Under the pieces are notes generated by a model. The model saw nothing but the letters and a program-made list of their open reading frames with translations, had not been told where the DNA came from and ran no database searches. A stretch of 38,775 bases of DNA from a virus, in IMG/VR virus record IMGVR_UViG_3300024974_000009, positions 1-38,775 of that record, one strand, 5' to 3'. A program made the position numbers and the translations under genes. Below, in pieces: positions 10,836 through 34,827 of this stretch. Every line of letters starts with the position of its first letter. The first letter of the stretch is position 1.

Positions 10836-11003
10836 ATGTTTATTAAACCAAAGAATGACAAACAAATTCCAGATCCAGTGCGCGGCGGTTACTTGCCCGC
10901 TGAAGGCGGTACTGTAGATGATAACGATATTTACTGGCAGCGCCGTATTAATGATGGTGATGTTGAAATTGTGACTGAAACAAAGAAAACCGCAAAAGAG
11001 TAA
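10836..11003 (+). CDS. DUF2635 protein (Mu gp38-like)
   Basis: A 55-residue protein: starts MFIKPKNDKQIPDPVRGGYL and ends VEIVTETKKTAKE, with DIYWQRRINDGDV between. The pattern 'PxxxxxvrdP ... LpaeG ... yWxRRindGDV' identifies DUF2635, a small protein found next to the sheath gene in Mu-like tails; its role is not established. ATG 10836 is preceded by AAGGGT at 10825-10830. It is followed by a terminator. Confidence 0.85.
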   Translation: MFIKPKNDKQIPDPVRGGYLPAEGGTVDDNDIYWQRRINDGDVEIVTETKKTAKE

Positions 11004-11035
11004 TTTTCTAACACCTAACTTTGTAAAAAAAACTA

Positions 11036-11059
11036 AACCCGCTCAGTGCGGGTTTTTTT
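11036..11059 (+). terminator. Intrinsic terminator before the tail sheath gene
   Basis: AACCCGC (11036-11042) pairs with GCGGGTT (11048-11054), then a run of T. It is a near copy of the terminators at 6548 and 17912. Confidence 0.78.
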
Positions 11060-11080
11060 ATGCCTATAGGAGGGCTAAAA

Positions 11081-12565
11081 ATGACCGTTTCGTTTAATAA
11101 CATGCCAGCAAATCAGCGTGTGCCGTTATTTTATGCTGAGGTAGATAACTCGCAAGCGGGCTATTTTAGCCAAAACTTGCGTACATTGATTATCGGCCAA
11201 AAGCTTGCAGCTGGTATTGGGACACCTAATGTGCCCACCTTAGTTTCTAAAACTGATCAGGCTAAAACATTGGCTGGTGTTGGCTCTATTGCTGCAAAAA
11301 TGCATGAGATTTACCGTGCGAATGATGCCACTGGTGAAGTATGGATGCTGTTACTTGATGACTTAGGTGCTGGTGTAGCTTCAGTCAACACTATTACTGT
11401 GACAGGGCCATCGACAGAGGCCGGTACTTTAGCGTTATATATCGGCGCGCAAAAAACACAAATCACGGTGTTAAGTGGTGATACCGCTACTGTGGTGGCT
11501 GCTGCGATTGCGGCTGCGATTACTGCTGACTCTACATTACCAGTGACCGCTTCAGCTGCTGCCGGTGTCGTAACCTGTACCGCTAAGCATAAAGGTTTAA
11601 TCTCTAGCGATATTAAACTTCAAGTTAACTTCCGTGGCTTAGCTGGCGGTGAAAAAACACCGGCGGGCTTAACAGTAGCTTTTGCTCAAACGGTTGCTGG
11701 CACTGGCGTGAGTGTATTAACGACAGCTTTAGCGGCGTTAGGTGATGAACAATACGACTTCATCATTCATCCATACACTGATAGCACCTCATTAGATGCC
11801 TTCAAAACATTGATGAATGATACGACAGGCCGCTGGGCTTACAACCGCCAAATTTATGGCCATGTATATTCTGCCAAGTCTGACACATTCTCAAACCTAC
11901 AAGCGTTAGGTGTGGCACGTAATGATCAACATGCGACGGTAGCAGGCTTTGAAGTTGCGGTACCCAATCCAGTATGGGAATACGTAGCTGCTTACGGCGC
12001 ACGTAACGCCGTATTCATTGCAGCAGATCCAGCACGCCCAACGCAAACGGGTGAGTTGGTAGGTATCCTTCCAGCACCTTCACAAAATCGATTTATCGGC
12101 ACCGAGCGTGGCACATTATTGAATAGCGGTATTGCAACTAGCTATGTTGGCGCAGGTGCAGTGCGTATTGAGCGTGCGATTACCACTTACCAAAAAAATG
12201 CATTTAACCAAACTGATCCTAGCTATTTAGATTCTGAAACGATGCATACGCTAAGTTATGTTTTGCGCCGTTTACGTTACATCGTCACGCAAAAATATCC
12301 ACGCCATAAATTAGCAAATGACGGTACCCGTTTTGGTGCTGGCCAAGCAATTGTTACACCAAGCGTAGTACGCGGTGAAATCATGGGTGAATATGCAGCA
12401 CTTGAAGAATTAGGCATTGTAGAAAATCGCAAAGCCTTTGCAGCTAACTTGATTGTTGAGCGCAATGCGACTGATCCAAATCGTTTAGATGTACTTTATC
12501 CGCCTGATTTGGTTAATCAATTACGCATTTTTGCAGTATTAGCGCAATTCAGACTTCAGTATTAA
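11081..12565 (+). CDS. Contractile tail sheath protein (Mu gpL-like)
   Basis: 494 residues from ATG 11081, which has AGGAGGG at the right distance; the upstream ATG at 11060 lies in the terminator tail. The N-terminus (SFNNMPANQRVPLFYAEVDNSQAG) and the blocks TLIIGQKLAAGIGTPN, EVWMLLLDDLGAG, the FIIHPYTDSTSLDAF Rossmann-like segment, and the C-terminal VVRGEIMGEYAALEELGIVEN ... DLVNQLRIFAVLAQF match Mu gpL. It should polymerise around the tube and contract during injection. Confidence 0.93.
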   Translation: MTVSFNNMPANQRVPLFYAEVDNSQAGYFSQNLRTLIIGQKLAAGIGTPNVPTLVSKTDQAKTLAGVGSIAAKMHEIYRANDATGEVWMLLLDDLGAGVASVNTITVTGPSTEAGTLALYIGAQKTQITVLSGDTATVVAAAIAAAITADSTLPVTASAAAGVVTCTAKHKGLISSDIKLQVNFRGLAGGEKTPAGLTVAFAQTVAGTGVSVLTTALAALGDEQYDFIIHPYTDSTSLDAFKTLMNDTTGRWAYNRQIYGHVYSAKSDTFSNLQALGVARNDQHATVAGFEVAVPNPVWEYVAAYGARNAVFIAADPARPTQTGELVGILPAPSQNRFIGTERGTLLNSGIATSYVGAGAVRIERAITTYQKNAFNQTDPSYLDSETMHTLSYVLRRLRYIVTQKYPRHKLANDGTRFGAGQAIVTPSVVRGEIMGEYAALEELGIVENRKAFAANLIVERNATDPNRLDVLYPPDLVNQLRIFAVLAQFRLQY

Positions 12566-20071: not shown

Positions 20072-20950
20072 ATGGAACGCTATAACCTATCAGCGGGGAG
20101 TGCATCTGCGCCCATCGCACCTTCAGCGCCAACAAATAAATTCTTTACAGTAGGTAATCCTGGTGGTGGTACACCTGCAACTATACCAGGCGAGTGGTGG
20201 TTTCACATGCTTACAGAAGAGATTCGCGCAGTCATTATTGAAGGTGGATTAACGCCAGACCATACGGTGCTAACTCAGCTTCGTGATGCCATTAAGAATA
20301 TAGTCAAAGGCGGAGATTACAAAGACAGTGTACGCGTTGCTTCAACCACAGCAATTAACTTAGCCGCACCAGGCGCAAATATTGACGGCGTTGCAATGGT
20401 CGCTGGTGATCGCTTTCTTGAGAAAGACAATGCTACTTTAGCTAATCGCGGTATTTATATTTGGAATGGTGCAGCTGTGCCAGCTACACGTGCACTAGAT
20501 TCAGATACGGGTGCTGAGTTAAACGGTGGTGCGATTATTCCCGTAACAGAAGGTACGGTGAATGCTGATACTAACTGGCAAATCACTAATGATGGGGTAG
20601 TAGTCATTGGTACGACAGGATTAACTTTCGCCTGTATTGAAACAAAGTTATTTACTGGTACAAATCAATCTCTAGCGACTAATGGTTATCAGAAGTTTCC
20701 TGGAGGCTTAATTATACAGTGGGGAACTGACACATTTGCAGCGGGAACGCCAGCAAACAAAGCGGCAACGCTGCCTATTACTTATCCAACATCGTTGCTT
20801 ATGGCAATAGGGGTAGATAGAACTATAGGTGCGCAAACCACAGTATCACTTTCTTGGAGACCTGATTTAAGTAGTACGAGTCAAGCGACATTTTCAACTG
20901 CTGACGGTACAACAACTGGGATATTCTCATTTGTAACTATAGGATATTAA
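20072..20950 (+). CDS. Tail fibre protein
   Basis: 292 residues with AGGAG upstream. The N-terminal ~80 residues (MERYNLSAGSASAPIAPSAP, then PGEWWFHMLTEEIRAVIIEG) are of the kind that fastens fibres to Mu-like baseplates. A middle segment (DGVAMVAGDRFLEKDNATLA, NRGIYIWNGA) is a repeat-like beta module common in fibres. The C-terminal domain NGYQKFPGGLIIQWGT ... FSFVTIGY is the gp53-like fibre tip, which usually binds host receptor. No DGR variable repeat is present in this gene. A short 62-base gap lies before it. Confidence 0.85.
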   Translation: MERYNLSAGSASAPIAPSAPTNKFFTVGNPGGGTPATIPGEWWFHMLTEEIRAVIIEGGLTPDHTVLTQLRDAIKNIVKGGDYKDSVRVASTTAINLAAPGANIDGVAMVAGDRFLEKDNATLANRGIYIWNGAAVPATRALDSDTGAELNGGAIIPVTEGTVNADTNWQITNDGVVVIGTTGLTFACIETKLFTGTNQSLATNGYQKFPGGLIIQWGTDTFAAGTPANKAATLPITYPTSLLMAIGVDRTIGAQTTVSLSWRPDLSSTSQATFSTADGTTTGIFSFVTIGY

Positions 20951-26183: not shown

Positions 26184-26303
26184 GGTAGGGGCTTGCTCTG
26201 CAAGGCGTTTCTGCTCAAGCATTTCATAAAGCATAGGACCAAGTATTTTGGCTGCTTTTTTGGCGTCTGGCTTATTTGCAGTGATAAATTCTATTTCAAG
26301 CAT
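26127..26303 (-). CDS. Small protein downstream of the DGR reverse transcriptase
   Basis: 58 residues: starts MLEIEFITANKPDAKKAAKI, ends KQPSQLDSGDSVA. The ATG at 26303 overlaps the reverse-transcriptase stop by 8 bases, suggesting translational coupling. The first 40 residues should be helical and charged; the C-terminal tail is encoded by the inverted repeat, so both it and the integrase on the opposite strand read SGDSVA. It is unlike any family I know. Overlap with the integrase end (57 bases, opposite strand) lowers the confidence that the whole frame is used. Confidence 0.45.
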   Translation of the reverse strand: MLEIEFITANKPDAKKAAKILGPMLYEMLEQKRLAEQAPTSRRKLKQPSQLDSGDSVA

Positions 26304-27714
26304 TTTTATGTACCTTTGCTCGATAGGTCTTAGTTATGGCCATGTTTATGCAATGGCCTTTATCTCTAAGTGCATTAGCTATTTTAGTGCGGTCACGATG
26401 GCTTTTTGATGCCTGTCTCAACAATCCAAAATAGCTATTAGCCATTTCGAATGTTTCATCTGCGGGTGACTTTTTAATCTGATTAATAGCTTCATTGACA
26501 GTGCGTTTACGCGTATATCTATACCAAGGCTTAATCACTTGACCAACAAAATCAACTCCACGATCAACCGGCTGCAGAATGGTTTTAGTAGGGTTTAGAT
26601 TGGCATTTAGCTTAGTAGGTAAGAACTCATTAATACGTGCTAAAGCACTGTTTAACCACTGTGGTGACTCATGCAATAGAACAAAGTCATCAACGTAGCG
26701 GATATAGTGCTTAGCTCCTATTTGATGCTTAATGAATTGGTCTAGTGCATTTAGATAGATATTGGCAAAGAACTGAGAGCTTAGATTGCCAATGGGTAAG
26801 CCCAAGTGACTTGGTTGATTAGTTAAGCGTTTGTGTGGTGGTACTAGATCTATTTTTTCAGGATAGCCACGCAATTCAAAGTTAGTACGTGGATCATGAA
26901 ATAGAATGACGTCTGATAACCATAACCACCATGACTCAGTCACTTTAGTAGCGACTTGTTTGCGCAATACATTTTTATCGATAGCAACAAAGAAGTTAGC
27001 TAAATCACACTTTAAGTAAAAACAAGGCTTACTCCAGTTCTCAGTAGCGCTGCGAATCTTTGACTCTAGGCGTTTAGCTGCATAAAGAGTGCCGCGCCCT
27101 GGTATGCATGCGCAACTATCATGAATGAATGATGCATAAAAGCGTGGTGAAATTCGATTGTAAAATAAGTGGTGCACAATGCGATCACGAAAGTCAGCAG
27201 CCCATACTTCACGGGGTTTTGGTCTAGTGATGACAAAGCAAATAGATTTACCTGGTGCATAAGTATTTGCTTTTAATTCATCATAAAGCTTAATTAAGTT
27301 GTGCTCTAGGTTTAATTCAAACGCTAAAGCGCTCGATGTATTACGTTTATTCTTACGGCAATCTAAATAGGCTTGTACCAACTCTTCAAAAGCAAAATCA
27401 GCAACTAGGCGTTCGGTATGATCTGCGGACAGCGCGGGCGCGCAACTCGTTATTCTTGTTGTTGTTGTTCTGGTTGCCGTTGTTGAAATTCTGATACCAG
27501 GCATAACTTGAATTAGAGGCGTGCTGCGTTGTATCTTACTATCTACGTCGCTCTGCCGAAGGACTGATTTAATGTCAGCGCCGATCAGTGGAGTAACTGC
27601 GCTAGACCTATCCTGAAAGCTATCAGTGGTATCTATACTGCGCATAGCGGTAGCCTTTTGAGCTAGCGGTAAAACCAGATTATTTAATCGTACGGTCATA
27701 TTAGCCTTAACCAT
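26296..27714 (-). CDS. DGR reverse transcriptase (template repeat inside its frame)
   Basis: 472 residues if started at ATG 27714, which overlaps the Avd stop as TAATG. RT motifs: CDLANFFVAID (motif A, Asp237), HLGLPIGNLSSQFFANIYLN (303-322, the retron/DGR/group II-type motif), YIRYVDDFVLLH (Asp342, Asp343), then KLNANLNPTKT and FVGQVIKPW. The RT domain begins near FAFEELVQAYLDCRKNKRN (108-126), where most DGR RTs begin; residues 63-98 are the translated template repeat. No ATG occurs between codon 71 and the late C-terminus, so translation must start at or before the repeat. The enzyme copies TR RNA with errors at adenines and transfers the cDNA to VR. With Avd it forms the active complex. 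Confidence 0.95.
   Translation of the reverse strand: MVKANMTVRLNNLVLPLAQKATAMRSIDTTDSFQDRSSAVTPLIGADIKSVLRQSDVDSKIQRSTPLIQVMPGIRISTTATRTTTTRITSCAPALSADHTERLVADFAFEELVQAYLDCRKNKRNTSSALAFELNLEHNLIKLYDELKANTYAPGKSICFVITRPKPREVWAADFRDRIVHHLFYNRISPRFYASFIHDSCACIPGRGTLYAAKRLESKIRSATENWSKPCFYLKCDLANFFVAIDKNVLRKQVATKVTESWWLWLSDVILFHDPRTNFELRGYPEKIDLVPPHKRLTNQPSHLGLPIGNLSSQFFANIYLNALDQFIKHQIGAKHYIRYVDDFVLLHESPQWLNSALARINEFLPTKLNANLNPTKTILQPVDRGVDFVGQVIKPWYRYTRKRTVNEAINQIKKSPADETFEMANSYFGLLRQASKSHRDRTKIANALRDKGHCINMAITKTYRAKVHKNA
27421..27527 (-). repeat. DGR template repeat (TR)
   Basis: 107 bp, aligned without gaps to VR1 (28101-28207) and VR2 (28583-28689). On the minus strand it is rich in AAC/AAT codons: in the target frame it reads NNGNQNNNNKNNE, the typical template with Asn codons at variable positions. 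Substitutions in VR1 (10) and VR2 (15) all lie at template A. Its final 29 bases (27421-27449 on +) are invariant and G/C-rich, as expected for the initiation-of-homing region. Confidence 0.96.
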
Positions 27715-28086: not shown

Positions 28087-28536
28087 TTACTGAATAATTA
28101 ATCTGCGGACAGCGCGGGCGCGCAACTCGCCACCCTTGCTGGTGTTGATCTGGTTGCCGTTGTAGAAATTCTGATACCAGGCAGAACTTGAAATAGAGGC
28201 GTGCTGCTCATTTGTCCAATACCATGCCTCTTCAAACTCTTCTTTAAGGTTGGCATATAGCAATGCTTGCTCACGTCTATTTGGTAACTCACCACCTTGT
28301 TCTTTAGCCCATGTGAGTGCATCAGTCCAATTAATCTCTGATTGATGACCATCGAGTAAAATCAAGTGATAGCTAGATTCACCATCTTTACCTAAGATTA
28401 GACCTGCATAACGCTCACCTGCTTTAAGTGATATTTCAGTATGTGGAAATACATACTCAGTAGTTTGTTTTTCAAAGCTTGAAATCAGGCTTAATATTTC
28501 ATCCTGCTTAGCTTTGATGGTTTGTAATGTGATCAT
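28087..28536 (-). CDS. DGR target protein 1 (C-type-lectin-like, carries VR1)
   Basis: 149 residues with an AGGAG ribosome site. An N-terminal helix (QTIKAKQDEILSLISSFEKQ) precedes the lectin-like domain: LKAGERYAGLILGKDGESSY, HLILLDGHQSEINWTDALTW, GGELPNRREQALLYANLKEE, AWYWTNEQHAS, ending GELRARAVRRLIIQ. Residues about 110-146 are encoded by VR1. Compared with the template, eight Asn or Tyr codons are changed, at surface-loop positions of the DGR lectin fold. No signal peptide or membrane segment, so it is cytoplasmic unless carried on the virion. Ligand unknown. Confidence 0.93.
   Translation of the reverse strand: MITLQTIKAKQDEILSLISSFEKQTTEYVFPHTEISLKAGERYAGLILGKDGESSYHLILLDGHQSEINWTDALTWAKEQGGELPNRREQALLYANLKEEFEEAWYWTNEQHASISSSAWYQNFYNGNQINTSKGGELRARAVRRLIIQ
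28101..28207 (-). repeat. DGR variable repeat 1 (VR1)
   Basis: 107 bp, 10 mismatches to TR, all at template A: five to G, two to C and three to T on the minus strand. It encodes the C-terminal end of target 1; the invariant 29-bp end is at 28101-28129. Confidence 0.96.
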
Positions 28537-28571
28537 TGATAGCTCCTAAATTAAAAAAAATAATTAAATGA

Positions 28572-28931
28572 CTAAATAGCTAATCTGCGGACAGCGCGGG
28601 CGCGCAACTCGTTACCCTTGTAGTGGCTGTCCTGGCCGCCGTTGTCGAAACCCTGACACCAGGCACAACTGGAATCAGAGGCGTGCTGCTCATTTGTCCA
28701 ATACCATTCAGGGTTGAATTGGTCTTTTGATTGGTTGAATAGTAGGGCGCTTTCTGCACGGTTAGGTAGGTCGCCACCAAGTGATTTAGCCCACTCCATA
28801 GCATTATCCCAATTGCCATCATCTTTATCGCCTGTAAGTAGAATGATGTGGCTGCCAGTGCCATCTGGGTTGATGATTGCCCCTGCGTAGATTTCGCCAA
28901 TATTTAATTCTGGTTTAGTGATTTGGTTCAT
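28572..28931 (-). CDS. DGR target protein 2 (C-type-lectin-like, carries VR2)
   Basis: 119 residues, AAAGG ribosome site. Same lectin-like core as target 1 without the N-terminal helix: NIGEIYAGAIINPDGTGSHI, ILLTGDKDDGNWDNAMEWAK, GGDLPNRAESALLFNQSKDQ, EWYWTNEQHAS, ending NELRARAVRRLAI. Residues about 81-116 are encoded by VR2. VR2 differs from TR more than VR1 does, and two Tyr codons of the template have become Cys (SSCAWCQ), which could form a disulfide or bind metal. The two targets are clearly paralogues by duplication including their 3' flank. Ligand unknown. Confidence 0.93.
   Translation of the reverse strand: MNQITKPELNIGEIYAGAIINPDGTGSHIILLTGDKDDGNWDNAMEWAKSLGGDLPNRAESALLFNQSKDQFNPEWYWTNEQHASDSSCAWCQGFDNGGQDSHYKGNELRARAVRRLAI
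28583..28689 (-). repeat. DGR variable repeat 2 (VR2)
   Basis: 107 bp, 15 mismatches to TR, all at template A. It shares the invariant 29-bp end (28583-28611) with VR1 and TR. The A/T-rich flank just beyond (28561-28582) resembles that of VR1 (28076-28100) and not that of TR. Confidence 0.96.
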
Positions 28932-28964: not shown

Positions 28965-29981
28965 TTAAGCGGTTAGTTCTAAGTAAATTTGTAATGTATG
29001 CATGGCTTTTTCAATATCCATACGGCCACCTTTATCTCGTTCACGCGCAAGGTATGAGAACACTTCTTTTTTCATAGCACCTTTAAGTTCTTCGGGTGTC
29101 ATCCAGCGTTTAAAAACTTCCCATGGCTGATAAATGCCTAGTTTTGTATAGTGATCACCACCAATTTGAGAGGTCAGAGCTGAGAGTCCAGCAACGCAAT
29201 TAATATCTTCAAGCTCGGCTGTAAATGACAGTGCTGTTAATTCATCTGCAGGAGAAAATGGCATTGTTTTAACTGGCGCAATAGTTGGCTTTTCTTCAGC
29301 TGCAGCATTAAATTGAGCGACTTCATCAGCTAAAGTATTTGGCTTTTTAACCTTAGCGACTTTGGCTTTACTCATTTGCACTACATCATCGGTATGATTG
29401 ACCAGGCTATTTTTAAAATAGCGGATAGTATGAATGACACCTTTTTCATTTGATTTCAAAGCACGTTTTGTATAGCCGCCTGCTTTAATTGTGTAGGTGA
29501 TCATGTCGCCTGCTTTGCGGATTAAATCATCAGTAGATGTTTCACCCACAAGCTTAAACAATAGTTCGTTATGGGATATACCTTCCTTATCAGTTGCATC
29601 CAATATTTCACGTATTTGCGCGGCTTTAAATGGTTTTTCTTGCATGTCGATTCCTTCACTGTTGTTTGATTTAGATTGCTTGAGTGCTGCCCAGCTGGCA
29701 GGTTCTAGCGGCTTTACTTTTGGCTCTTTACCGAACGTAGGTATTGGGTCTTTAGTCATTGCAGGACCTTTGAAACCTGTTGGCCAATACTGCAGATAGG
29801 TCAATGTGCCTTTGGTGATCTGACAGCGATTCACAAAGCCTTTTTCAAATAGGTAATCCAGTGCCGGCTGAATTAAGATGCTTTTAACGCCGCAACCGGT
29901 ATAAATCTCAGGTGCGGTTTTAGCCTGGGCAGGCGTCGCACCTTTTAAGAAGTCGAGTATTGTTTGCTGCGCGGGTGTCAT
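28965..29981 (-). CDS. DUF3310 protein with winged-helix-like N-terminal regions
   Basis: 338 residues. Two helix-turn-helix-like regions (residues about 5-60: QTILDFLKGATPAQAKTAPE, ALDYLFEKGFVNRCQ; and 120-190: REILDATDKEGISHNELLFK) are joined by linkers. The C-terminal ~70 residues are DUF3310: LTSQIGGDHYTKLGIYQPWE, FKRWMTPEELKGAMKKEVFS YLARERDKGGRMDIEKA. DUF3310 occurs in phage nucleotide-kinase-like proteins such as T7 gp1.7. The fusion suggests a DNA-related early function. It overlaps the ParB-like gene by 4 bases (ATGA). Confidence 0.75.
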   Translation of the reverse strand: MTPAQQTILDFLKGATPAQAKTAPEIYTGCGVKSILIQPALDYLFEKGFVNRCQITKGTLTYLQYWPTGFKGPAMTKDPIPTFGKEPKVKPLEPASWAALKQSKSNNSEGIDMQEKPFKAAQIREILDATDKEGISHNELLFKLVGETSTDDLIRKAGDMITYTIKAGGYTKRALKSNEKGVIHTIRYFKNSLVNHTDDVVQMSKAKVAKVKKPNTLADEVAQFNAAAEEKPTIAPVKTMPFSPADELTALSFTAELEDINCVAGLSALTSQIGGDHYTKLGIYQPWEVFKRWMTPEELKGAMKKEVFSYLARERDKGGRMDIEKAMHTLQIYLELTA

Positions 29982-31789
29982 GCCTCAACCTCTACGGTAT
30001 CGCTCGCACCACTGGTTTGCGCTGACTCAGTCAGCGCCTTAGTATTTAGATCTGCGTTAGCAGATTCCTTTTGTTCTTGCTTCTGGGCTTTTTTAGCGCG
30101 TTTGGCCAATTCTTTGTCTTTGATTTCCTGCAATTTAGGCGACAGTTGGGTTTCATTATTCGCAGGCGCAGCCAAGTCGGCGTTTGATTCAACCGCCTGC
30201 GCAGCCAAAGGTGGGGTAAGGGGCAGTTCGGCGGTTAAAAATTGCGATAAATCGAGGCCAATATTGCCAATAAATGAGAGTAGGGCTTGGTAATCTGTGT
30301 CGTTTTCGTTATCTGCTTCAGTTTCCCAACCCCAATGAACCTCTAAACCTGGTGCGAGTAACAACATGGCGAGCATTTTCAGCAATTCCTTTTGACCTTG
30401 CTTACTTTGCTGAAAGTCTGTGAAAAACTCTTCTTCAGTGCCTTCAAATTGATATTGATCTAACACTGGTTGTAAATCAGTTGAAACATCTGTACTCAGC
30501 GTTGTAATGGCCATTCTAAGTAGGAGGTGAACAGTATCAACGTTAAAATAATCAATCTTAGGTATTAGGCGATTGAATATATGTATGCGTCTTTCATCCT
30601 CAACGGACTGTCTAGCTTCTTTGGCTTCCTGTTCAATTTTCCAAGCTGGCTTTTCTTCAGGCTCTTTAGGATTAACTACTAACTCACCTGAAGCTAGTTT
30701 TTCTTTAATTTTTTCTTTTAATAATGATTGCACCTCACTAGTTTTATAAATGACGACAACATTATTTTTATCATCAACAATGGTATGGCTTGGTGGGTTA
30801 ACTTCAGCAATTAATTCATCGGTGATTTGAACGCCATCTAAAGAATAAACACATGCTTTAGCTTCTTTTTCATAGCCTCTTAAATATCCACCAACTAATC
30901 CATACGGTGCAATTTCTTTAGCAGCTTCACCATGAATGACGTTGGGCTGAGTTTTAATCACATCATGCGCATAAGCTATTTTTTTCGCCGCAAAGCATGC
31001 GGTATCTGTACAGACGTCTGTACTATCAATGTCTTGAAATAACTCTGGATAATTGCCGGTGCGTTTAGGGCAACTAAAGCAGCTGCCAGCCATCGGATAT
31101 AACGTGGTGCTGATTTTATCCCATGGCGCTTTACTTAAATCTAGGGTGAAATTCTGGCGAATATAGTCTTTACTACGACGAAAACTAAGCTCATTACTCA
31201 CAATGTCTTTAGCGGCTTGCTCCTGAAGTTTCGCGCCTGGTATGCGTGCAATGAGTAATGCAATTTCACGGCCAAACTTACCTTCAAAGAACAAGTCTTG
31301 CGCATAAGTACATAGTTCATTTAGTTTGAGTGAGCCATATATATAGCTGCGTGATTTGCCTATTTTGACGGCTAGTTCGTCTGCATCCCAGCTTTTAGCG
31401 TCTTTGTTATCGAGTAGGGCTTTAAAGCCTTGCGCTTCTTCAAGTGGGTGAAGGTCTGAGCGTTGCAGGTTTTCTATGATCTGCAGCTGCAGTGTTTCTA
31501 AATCGTCCAGCTCGCGGATGATGGCGGGGATGGTGTCTTGTTGCGCTAGCTTACTCGCACGCCAGCGGCGCTCACCTGAAACAAGTTCATAAAGCGTGTG
31601 GCCTGTTGGATCCATCGACACAGCAGCGTCATTGGTTGGGCGTACTAAAATTGGCTGCATGACGCCATGCTGCTTAATACTATTGGCTAAATCTTGCAGA
31701 TCAGCTGAGTCAAACCGCTTGCGTGGATTAGTAAGTGAGGCACGAATATCGCTGATGTTAATATGCTGGCCAAGGGTTTGCGTTTGCAT
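29978..31789 (-). CDS. ParB-like DNA-binding protein with a Cys cluster
   Basis: 603 residues. The N-terminal ParB/Srx domain has DIRASLTNPRKRFDSADLQD, YELVSGERRWRASKLA (residues 68-82) and ENLQRSDLHPLEEAQGFKAL (106-125); the helix-turn-helix DADELAVKIGKSRSYIYGSL follows. A cysteine cluster (CFSCPKRT ... VCTDTACFAAKK, near 237-270) may bind zinc. The rest is helical and charged and the end is low complexity. ParB-like proteins centre on DNA and may stabilise or regulate the phage chromosome. No ParA gene is present, so a full partition system is not shown. Confidence 0.88.
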   Translation of the reverse strand: MQTQTLGQHINISDIRASLTNPRKRFDSADLQDLANSIKQHGVMQPILVRPTNDAAVSMDPTGHTLYELVSGERRWRASKLAQQDTIPAIIRELDDLETLQLQIIENLQRSDLHPLEEAQGFKALLDNKDAKSWDADELAVKIGKSRSYIYGSLKLNELCTYAQDLFFEGKFGREIALLIARIPGAKLQEQAAKDIVSNELSFRRSKDYIRQNFTLDLSKAPWDKISTTLYPMAGSCFSCPKRTGNYPELFQDIDSTDVCTDTACFAAKKIAYAHDVIKTQPNVIHGEAAKEIAPYGLVGGYLRGYEKEAKACVYSLDGVQITDELIAEVNPPSHTIVDDKNNVVVIYKTSEVQSLLKEKIKEKLASGELVVNPKEPEEKPAWKIEQEAKEARQSVEDERRIHIFNRLIPKIDYFNVDTVHLLLRMAITTLSTDVSTDLQPVLDQYQFEGTEEEFFTDFQQSKQGQKELLKMLAMLLLAPGLEVHWGWETEADNENDTDYQALLSFIGNIGLDLSQFLTAELPLTPPLAAQAVESNADLAAPANNETQLSPKLQEIKDKELAKRAKKAQKQEQKESANADLNTKALTESAQTSGASDTVEVEA

Positions 31790-33041: not shown

Positions 33042-33086
33042 ATAATATACAAGCATACTTGTAACTATGTCAACAAGAATAATTGT
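33042..33086 (-). promoter_or_regulatory. PL promoter with two repressor operators
   Basis: On the minus strand: operator ACAATTATTCTTGT (33073-33086), -35 TTGACA (33068-33073), operator ACAAGTATGCTTGT (33049-33062, between -35 and -10), -10 TATATT (33044-33049), spacer 18. It matches the PR module at 34500-34544 in 42 of 45 bases. It drives the leftward operon. Confidence 0.85.
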
Positions 33087-33148: not shown

Positions 33149-33172
33149 TAAAAAACCCGCATTAGGCGGGTT
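33149..33172 (-). terminator. Intrinsic terminator ahead of PL
   Basis: AACCCGC (33154-33160) pairs with GCGGGTT (33166-33172). On the minus strand a T run follows, so it stops transcription from the repressor side before the leftward promoter. Confidence 0.75.
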
Positions 33173-33482: not shown

Positions 33483-34049
33483 TTACTTAACCTTGGCTTT
33501 TTGATTCACTTTTGGCTCGTCCTTAGCCGGCATTCTAACTAAACAGTCTTTAAGCATTGGCCTACCAAGCATCATTCCGTTGCCAATACAATCTAGCACT
33601 ACAAGCTCACCCTTTTTTAAATTTGAGGCTAACGTTGTTGCAGTACAAATCGTTGCTGAAGATAAGGTTCCGCATATTTGAGTTGGATATAAGTTTGCAT
33701 TAATACCTTGATAACTATTTACTCCAGTATTATTAAATTCAAGGTAAATATCATCTGTGAAGTTTTTTGATATTTTGCTTACTTTACCTGCAAGGACGAA
33801 TAATTTATCTTTATATTGCGTATCTGCTTTAACTTCATTGGCTGTATAGTCAATAAATAATTTCTTAGGGCTATATATATTAAGGATTTGATTTCTAGTT
33901 AGGTTAAATCGATGATTTAACGCCTGATTGTTTGTATCACCAGTGGTGGTGAAAGCTGGTAGCGTTTTTTGCAAAATTTCTTTTGCATCTACTTGAAATA
34001 CTACGGAAGTTAATGCAAATAATATTGTAATTTTTTTTATAAAATGCAT
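33483..34049 (-). CDS. Exported OB-fold (tRNA_anti-like) protein
   Basis: 188 residues. A signal peptide (MHFIKKITILFALTSVVFQV with cleavage near DA/KE) is followed by a linker, then the pattern YTANEVKADTQYKDKLFVLA GKVSKISKNFTDD, the OB-fold tRNA_anti-like module of exported proteins, and the segment ICGTLSSATICTATTLASNL KKGELVVLDC with Cys that may pair. It lies on the repressor strand and downstream of it, outside the early operons, the usual place for genes expressed in the lysogen. Its role (possibly changing the host envelope) is inferred. Confidence 0.7.
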   Translation of the reverse strand: MHFIKKITILFALTSVVFQVDAKEILQKTLPAFTTTGDTNNQALNHRFNLTRNQILNIYSPKKLFIDYTANEVKADTQYKDKLFVLAGKVSKISKNFTDDIYLEFNNTGVNSYQGINANLYPTQICGTLSSATICTATTLASNLKKGELVVLDCIGNGMMLGRPMLKDCLVRMPAKDEPKVNQKAKVK

Positions 34050-34121: not shown

Positions 34122-34463
34122 TTACTTTGCCATCTTGCTGAGTTTCGATACCGAATCAAGGCCCTTAATTGCTTCATCCAGCGCGTAATCAGGAAGCTCC
34201 TGCATTAAGAGGACTGCTTTTTTAATTCTGATATCTTCAACATATAAGCCATCTGTCATTTCGCCATGTCCTACAGCAAGCCATTCTGCACGGACGCCAC
34301 ATACCATAGCAATTTGAACTAAATACTCAGTACCTTTTGTAATACCGCGCTCTAGTAATGAGATATTTTGTTGAGTCATTAAGCCATTGAGTTTCTCTGC
34401 TAATTCTCTTTGATTGAGTTGAGCATGTTCTCTCGCTGCTGCTATTCGTTCACCTAAATTCAT
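34122..34463 (-). CDS. Short cI-like repressor (XRE helix-turn-helix)
   Basis: 113 residues from ATG 34463. The helix-turn-helix is MNLGERIAAAREHAQLNQRE LAEKLNGLMTQQNISLLERG (recognition helix near QQNISLLE), then RAEWLAVGHGEMTD and a helical C-terminus. It lacks the LexA-like S24 peptidase domain, so RecA-dependent self-cleavage is not possible and induction must differ from lambda. It lies divergent to the cro-like gene with operators between. An alternative ATG at 34472 is in frame; a longer open frame further up crosses the cro gene and is not used. Confidence 0.85.
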   Translation of the reverse strand: MNLGERIAAAREHAQLNQRELAEKLNGLMTQQNISLLERGITKGTEYLVQIAMVCGVRAEWLAVGHGEMTDGLYVEDIRIKKAVLLMQELPDYALDEAIKGLDSVSKLSKMAK

Positions 34464-34472
34464 GCTCAACAT

Positions 34473-34499
34473 ATTGTAGTCATTAGGTTTTTTGGTCAA
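34473..34499 (-). promoter_or_regulatory. Repressor promoter (PRM-like)
   Basis: On the minus strand TTTGAC (34495-34500) and TACAAT (34473-34478) are 16 bp apart. Transcription would begin around 34466, 3 bases before ATG 34463, so the repressor message may be leaderless. Confidence 0.45.
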
Positions 34500-34544
34500 A
34501 CAATTATACTTGTTGACATTCTTACAAGTATGCTTGTATATTAT
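34500..34544 (+). promoter_or_regulatory. PR promoter with two repressor operators
   Basis: Operator ACAATTATACTTGT (34500-34513), -35 TTGACA (34513-34518), operator ACAAGTATGCTTGT (34524-34537) in the spacer, -10 TATATT (34537-34542). The spacing (18) and operator positions are the same as in PL. The start codon at 34549 lies only 7 bases after the -10 box. Confidence 0.85.
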
Positions 34545-34548
34545 CGTC

Positions 34549-34827
34549 ATGAGTAAATTATTCCTTGAAAAAATTATTGAGCTTCTAGGTGGTAAGCAGC
34601 AGCGTTTAGCTGAGGTACTGTCCACCGATGAAAAACCAATTAAACAAGCCCATGTATGGAATTGGCTAAATGTTACGGCTGATGGGATTCCAGAACGCCA
34701 TGTCATTAAAGCTTGTAAGGCTGTCAATTTTCAGGTGACGCCGCACGAGTTGCGTTCTGATATTTATCCTCATCCGCATGATGGTCTGCCAGAGTCCATG
34801 CGTAATACCAGCGAGGCGGCTGCGTGA
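34549..34827 (+). CDS. Cro/YdaS-like regulator
   Basis: 92 residues from ATG 34549. SKLFLEKIIELLGGKQQRLA and QAHVWNWLNVTADGIPERHV IKACKAVNFQVTPHELRSDI YPHP match the YdaS/Cro family of phage helix-turn-helix proteins. It is the first gene under PR and should antagonise the cI-like repressor in the lytic path. A transcript from the predicted -10 box would start at or near the A of the ATG, so it may be leaderless; the upstream ATG frame (34492) crosses the promoter. Confidence 0.88.
   Translation: MSKLFLEKIIELLGGKQQRLAEVLSTDEKPIKQAHVWNWLNVTADGIPERHVIKACKAVNFQVTPHELRSDIYPHPHDGLPESMRNTSEAAA

Follow-up and report, generated by a model that had tools for sequence, protein, structure and literature searches.

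A phage DGR with two small stand-alone lectin targets in a putative early, repressor-controlled operon

DGRs of phages are usually explained by tail-fibre tropism switching, and the phage DGR targets of tested function that we know of are receptor-binding proteins. In BPP-1, the target is Mtd, a tail protein of 381 aa whose gene lies beside the tail fibre gene bbp9 on the late strand; the mtd, avd and brt genes share this strand with the tail, head and terminase genes, and the exonuclease, SSB, polymerase and integrase genes lie on the opposite one. In a global survey, viral DGR targets were mostly tail proteins in three clades and otherwise unknown (PMC8144416). The passages of DiGReF relevant here already list, in 2012, multi-target DGRs in betaproteobacterial hosts, with at least two paralogous targets in Burkholderia, Ralstonia, Sideroxydans, Collimonas and Pseudogulbenkiania (PMC3521204). 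In the open literature searched, we found neither an account of the early repressor-controlled setting and the helix rule described below nor a functional study of DUF1566-type phage DGR targets.

The locus studied here lies in the IMG/VR virus record IMGVR_UViG_3300024974_000009, whose full 38,775 bases were analysed and are called the window. It shares with BPP-1 the order target, Avd, TR and RT, the adenine-directed variation and a C-type lectin fold in the target, but differs in having two targets, of 119 and 149 residues (T119 and T149), on the early strand. We put at about even the chance that this DGR hypermutates the binding face of two cytosolic C-type lectins made at the start of the lytic cycle by a temperate phage. 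The arrangement is common to many unrelated phages, which suggests that hypermutation serves recognition in the infected cell rather than attachment.

The cassette of the window and its two targets

On the minus strand, the genes are read in the order ParB-like, DUF3310-like, T119, T149, Avd and RT frame (Table 1). Gaps of 33, 35 and 22 nt separate the DUF3310-like gene, T119, T149 and Avd in turn, and Avd abuts the RT frame, so that the stretch from the DUF3310-like gene to the RT is likely one transcript. The translated RT frame contains the YVDD and SSQ motifs. It also reads through the TR (27421-27527 within 26296-27714), and the RT N-terminus may be partly TR-encoded; a relative (L023/L076) has a different RT frame arrangement, the parts being about 300 nt further apart.

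Table 1. Coordinates of the features discussed, in the numbering of the window
Feature	Position	Strand	Evidence or remark
Tail fibre, without VR, late operon on the other strand	20072..20950	+	tail-fibre PHROGs, Gp53-like_C
DGR reverse transcriptase (RT) frame, start codon uncertain	26296..27714	-	phrog_1423 E 8.7e-117; RVT_1 E 6.5e-16
Template repeat (TR), one copy	27421..27527	-	inside 5' part of RT frame
Avd, 116 aa	27714..28064	-	bAvd PF22296 E 6.7e-16; phrog_3206 (Avd protein of DGR) E 3.2e-32
DGR target T149, Avd-proximal	28087..28536	-	149 aa ORF, predicted lectin with N-terminal heptad helix
Variable repeat (VR) of T149	28101..28207	-	10 mismatches to TR, 10/10 at TR adenines
Amphipathic helix, codons 4-22 of T149	28471..28527	-	AF2 helix 4-22; heptad pattern in 70 relatives
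DGR target T119, first target of operon	28572..28931	-	119 aa ORF, predicted stand-alone Lcl_C/C-type-lectin protein
Variable repeat (VR) of T119	28583..28689	-	15 mismatches to TR, 15/15 at TR adenines
Upstream operon gene, DUF3310-like (below curated cut-off)	28965..29981	-	33 nt from T119
ParB-like protein, same operon as targets	29978..31789	-	ParB_N E 2.1e-29
Putative leftward promoter/operator, pL-like, toward targets	33042..33086	-	TTGACA-18-TATATT
Terminator-like stem, weak	33154..33172	-	upstream of leftward promoter, between promoter and repressor transcript
CI-like repressor frame, true start probably internal	34122..34727	-	HTH_3 E 3.3e-8; Phage_CI_repr E 0.0057
Cro-position regulator, YdaS family	34492..34827	+	PF15943 E 6.2e-11
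Putative rightward promoter/operator, pR-like	34500..34544	+	TTGACA-18-TATATT

The VRs sit near the C-terminal end of both target genes. All 25 mismatches between them and the TR fall at TR adenines, with a random-placement p of 5e-6 for 10 mismatches and 4e-9 for 15, and the differences between the two VRs are likewise confined to TR-adenine positions. The window therefore holds what characterizes a DGR: an A-directed TR/VR pair, a DGR-type RT adjoining the TR, an Avd and a predicted C-type lectin fold carrying the VR. No repeat copy beyond the TR and the two VRs was found in the whole record.

The comparison with a close relative, IMGVR_UViG_3300004234_000005 (L022), separates the VRs from the rest of the genes. 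For T149, the ratio of nonsynonymous to synonymous codon changes is 3:15 in the body and 13:0 in the VR; for T119, the corresponding values are 7:10 and 11:1. These VR differences would fit active mutagenic retrohoming. L022 itself lacks Avd, TR and the 5' part of the RT, which are replaced (10884-12253) by an insert with an HNH-endonuclease-like frame. Since its three targets are intact after this loss, the targets seem to be useful without ongoing diversification.

Both targets matched the Lcl_C family (DUF1566, PF07603) with scores below its Pfam gathering score of 34.9 (T119, E 2.3e-6, 28.3 bits; T149, E 2e-5, 25 bits), and the family was also matched by all 11 relatives tested, at E values up to 0.1. 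AlphaFold2 models, built from 12 to 14 relatives, gave a compact lectin for both, with a mean pLDDT of 95 for T119 and 92 for T149. The best PDB match of T119 was the Lcl C-terminal domain 8q4e (Foldseek E 1.7e-4), and T149 (VIA) gave Z 13.8 to 8oks and Z 13.4 to 8q4e over 113 residues, so that both predicted structures correspond to a solved Lcl C-terminal domain. Among solved structures, the C-terminal domains of Legionella Lcl and Bdellovibrio Bd2740 come nearest, and animal C-type lectins rank next. T119 and T149, which are 57% identical over the lectin, are thus predicted to be stand-alone C-type lectins of the Lcl_C/DUF1566 kind.

T149 has in addition a predicted N-terminal helix with the a/d core L4, I7, Q11, I14, I18 and F21, followed by a linker of lower AF2 certainty. 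This region gave no Pfam or PHROG match and no convincing PDB sequence match, and the Pfam and PHROG searches of both whole targets matched nothing besides the lectin end; an anchoring family absent from the fold list could escape such a search. By a simple hydropathy scan (not SignalP), neither a signal peptide nor a membrane segment was seen in T119 or T149. Among the 214 targets scanned, a 19-residue window exceeded 1.6 in just 5 and an N-terminal 12-residue window exceeded 2.0 in just 3, T119 and T149 not being among them, and secretion of the targets was rejected on these grounds.

Only the two target genes and the TR were matched when the target profile was run over the record. Since the record contains no further repeat copy, the tail fibre is not a DGR target. 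Run over 56 further virus records, the same profile matched no frame of fibre size, which is not proof for each phage because such records may be fragments; a third VR in a fibre gene was accordingly rejected for the window and, at fibre size, for these records.

These results bear on a sequence-only reading of the same DNA, which had held that the targets are two small stand-alone lectin-like proteins and that the tail fibre carries no VR. The target sizes and coordinates it gave are correct, as is their position on the strand opposite to the fibre and 7.1 kb from it. The AF2 fold, the absence of any other domain and the location outside the structural operon agree with its view of the proteins, and the hydropathy scan and the Pfam, PHROG and PDB sequence searches agree with its statement that they have no signal peptide, membrane segment or recognised anchoring domain. 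An extra N-terminal helix, which it had noted in one target only, is indeed confined to one of them, the bearer being the 149-residue protein (28087-28536), second in transcription order. The two checks set beforehand, for a conserved virion-anchoring domain and for a third VR in a fibre gene, found neither. On the site of action, which that reading left open, the present evidence leans towards the inside of the cell.

A putative pL-like promoter upstream of the operon

The two promoter-like sites, with hexamers at 33073-33044 (leftward) and 34513-34542 (rightward) that are identical in sequence and spacing, lie in the arms of a 45-nt inverted repeat (33042-33086 and 34500-34544, 93% identical) containing the palindrome ACAAG-TATG-CTTGT. 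The targets are 4.1 kb downstream of the leftward site. Promoters with a shared putative operator would therefore flank the HTH_3 repressor gene, one of them reading into the operon. This is the layout of lambda pL/pR, in which the repressor gene stands between outward promoters sharing an operator, the sites here being predicted ones. The early-operon location of the targets, merely asserted in the sequence-only reading, gains support from this predicted pair around the repressor. Terminator-like stems in the region are no more numerous than in shuffled sequences. A tRNA_anti-like (PF12869) protein with an N-terminus resembling a signal peptide is encoded at 33483-34049; it is possibly expressed in the lysogen, because its gene lies between the repressor and the leftward promoter.

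Similar operator/promoter pairs upstream of the cassette were found at 17 of 79 loci, as against 1 of 79 control chimeras, and also in Shewanella phage QDWS. The best pairs have outward promoters on both arms, and the operator sequence differs from phage to phage. In each of the eight relatives checked (seven loci and QDWS), an HTH_3 or Peptidase_S24 repressor gene follows the first arm. The window and at least eight relatives thus share one layout, in which two copies of a putative operator/promoter flank a repressor gene and the operon follows downstream.

The cassette in other phages

Viral contigs, GTDB genomes and phage records were scanned and yielded over 100 related loci, and those with an RT and a target were collapsed at 95% RT identity to 95; plasmid sequences, also searched, gave 0 matches. 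The loci belong to temperate phages and prophages, mostly of Burkholderiales, Rhodocyclales and other betaproteobacteria, and repeat the order short target, long target, Avd, TR and RT. Judged by sequence, the arrangement is a widespread phage cassette and not a peculiarity of IMGVR_UViG_3300024974_000009. Where both RT and Avd are present (113 loci), there are two targets in 74 cases, three in 31 and one in 6. The 251 targets are without exception encoded on the RT strand; their median length is 149 residues and the longest has 274. Three or four tandem targets were seen at L018 9565-10867 and L061 7238-9011, the latter with no Avd or RT match within the stretch examined.

The N-terminal heptad helix follows a simple rule, being present in 72 of 94 targets adjacent to Avd and in 1 of 117 upstream targets. 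Across 70 helix sequences, 97-100% have a strongly hydrophobic residue at the core positions 4, 7, 14, 18 and 21; His or Gln occupies position 11 in 65 of them, and all other positions except 17 hold polar or small residues. By its sequence the helix has a three-heptad pattern with one polar layer, like short coiled coils, and it might, as a guess, form a trimer.

Tail and neighbouring genes were surveyed as well. Among 53 records, a Baseplate_J gene is present in 21 and a siphovirus J-type gene in four more, the two sets being disjoint, and the helix-bearing target occurs with contractile as well as non-contractile tails. In all 25 of these records the targets lie opposite to the typed tail gene, although the phages are related and do not amount to 25 independent trials. 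Cassette neighbours sampled include RecE-like and other exonucleases, SSB, ParB-like proteins, DNA methyltransferases and integrases, and the commonest of them include no tail family. RecT, considered as a universal neighbour, was over the cut-off in only 2 of the 53 records and was dropped; the early location is therefore argued from other genes.

Larger relatives occur in Pseudomonas phages. The P. syringae phages Aurca01 and Medea1 carry target relatives of 199-206 aa, and their DUF1566 genes (L006 11949-12548 and 2715-4023; L010 7581-8889) have differences concentrated in DGR-like VRs; in one gene, 19 of 20 differences fall in the 3' VR stretch and 0 in the first 482 nt. An RT is absent from both records, and a TR was not found in the searched 57.4 kb of Aurca01 or 55.4 kb of Medea1. 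A DGR located elsewhere may act on these VRs in trans; when viral contigs were scanned once with the VR backbone for a trans-acting RT, a single contig came up. The cultured P. aeruginosa phages phPA-G and LPPA56 (L154 4842-7203, L008 7818-10250) have a target of 194-220 aa together with Avd and RT, in phPA-G downstream of a CI gene.

Site of action and relation to known systems

We infer cytosolic recognition early in the lytic cycle since the cassette lies outside the structural operon, travels between phages with unrelated tails and stands behind a putative lytic-switch promoter. On loss of the repressor, the leftward promoter would transcribe the ParB gene, both lectins, Avd, the TR RNA and the RT. 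The lectins would then bind a variable ligand in the infected cell, at a guess a host defence protein or some part of a competing phage, the 149-residue lectin probably as an oligomer held by its heptad helix. Variants would arise in replication and be tested when the progeny express them in the next host. Intracellular action is favoured by the adenine-only mismatches, the predicted fold, the lack of an export signal in the hydropathy scan, the promoter/operator pairs, the position opposite to the tail genes, the non-tail neighbours, the absence of targets from fibre-sized genes, the conserved bodies with varying VRs and the contrast with BPP-1; the nearby DNA methyltransferases and ParB-like proteins are a faint hint of a phage-host contest just after entry. 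The broader claim that temperate phages of a widespread class employ their DGR to evolve early proteins recognising host defences or rival phages inside the cell is one that we advance tentatively and with less than even confidence.

Early synthesis is also compatible with incorporation into the virion, the operator pairs were found in only a minority of loci, and lectins of this fold are found on large tail-like viral proteins as well. The main rival is virion attachment, because the phage DGR targets of tested function known to us are receptor-binding and a lectin joined to a short heptad helix could serve as a docking miniature fibre. The lectins would then be accessory receptor-binding proteins, made early but carried on the virion, with the T149 helix docking or trimerising and adsorption widened as by Mtd, whose VR in a BPP-1 tail protein is the precedent; the closest folds, too, are C-terminal domains of the bacterial surface proteins Lcl and Bd2740. 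However, the targets lie opposite to the tail genes wherever these were typed, contain no known anchoring domain and sit in a putative early operon, and the occurrence of the helix-bearing target with both kinds of tail argues against a partner specific to one tail. On balance we consider virion attachment rather unlikely.

The lectins might instead do their work once lysis has set them free: by binding cell debris, matrix or receptors as agglutinins or decoys, they would steer the encounters of later virions. Lysis makes an export signal needless and the fold suits surface ligands, but dilution after lysis would leave a weak linkage between variant and genome; we know of no precedent for such release and hold it to be quite improbable. 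A role in the lysogen, for example in the exclusion of other phages, with DGR variation as an adaptive immunity of the prophage, would agree with the distribution in temperate phages and prophages and with the proposal of hypervariable lectins as antigen sensors in multicellular bacteria (PMC10907252). We give it very little credence, as the targets have no effector domain and the operon should be silent in lysogens because its putative promoter shares an operator with the lytic one.

The tropism-switching model does not accommodate the many phages whose two or three very small hypermutated lectins are apparently controlled by the lytic switch. If the lectins act intracellularly, phages possess a tool of targeted hypermutation for the contest after DNA entry. 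The location of the lectins, in particles or in infected cells, and their ligands thereby become open to a direct test.

Compared with known systems, the window departs from the Mtd type, in which the VR lies in a receptor-binding protein encoded with the tail genes: here the fibre is VR-free and the cassette is opposite to the tail genes. The multiple-VR DGRs of DiGReF share its host range, and the relevant passages there do not describe a role of the targets, an early-operon control or a helix rule (PMC3521204). Legionella Lcl (8q4e) and Bdellovibrio Bd2740 (8oks) share the fold as C-terminal domains of larger bacterial proteins, whereas T119 and T149 are stand-alone and DGR-diversified. The hypermutated antigen sensors of Thiohalocapsa are DGR-varied lectins, several of them predicted to be cytoplasmic, but they are cellular and tied to NACHT or MoxR conflict proteins (PMC10907252); the targets of the window are phage-borne and consist of the lectin only, with ParB-like and DUF3310-like operon neighbours in place of a NACHT, MoxR or peptidase effector. 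The same cassette, with the helix-bearing target adjoining Avd, is found in Burkholderia phage Magia and Shewanella phage vB_Sb_QDWS, which differ in having a third target; it lies 5-6 kb upstream and, in QDWS, on the far side of the record origin. In a tblastn search, the terminase, capsid, sheath, baseplate and fibre proteins of the window had no match in these two phages, while their targets are 46-54% identical to those of the window and their RT about 60%, and the Magia record itself annotates a 'lectin fold domain protein, potential DGR target'.
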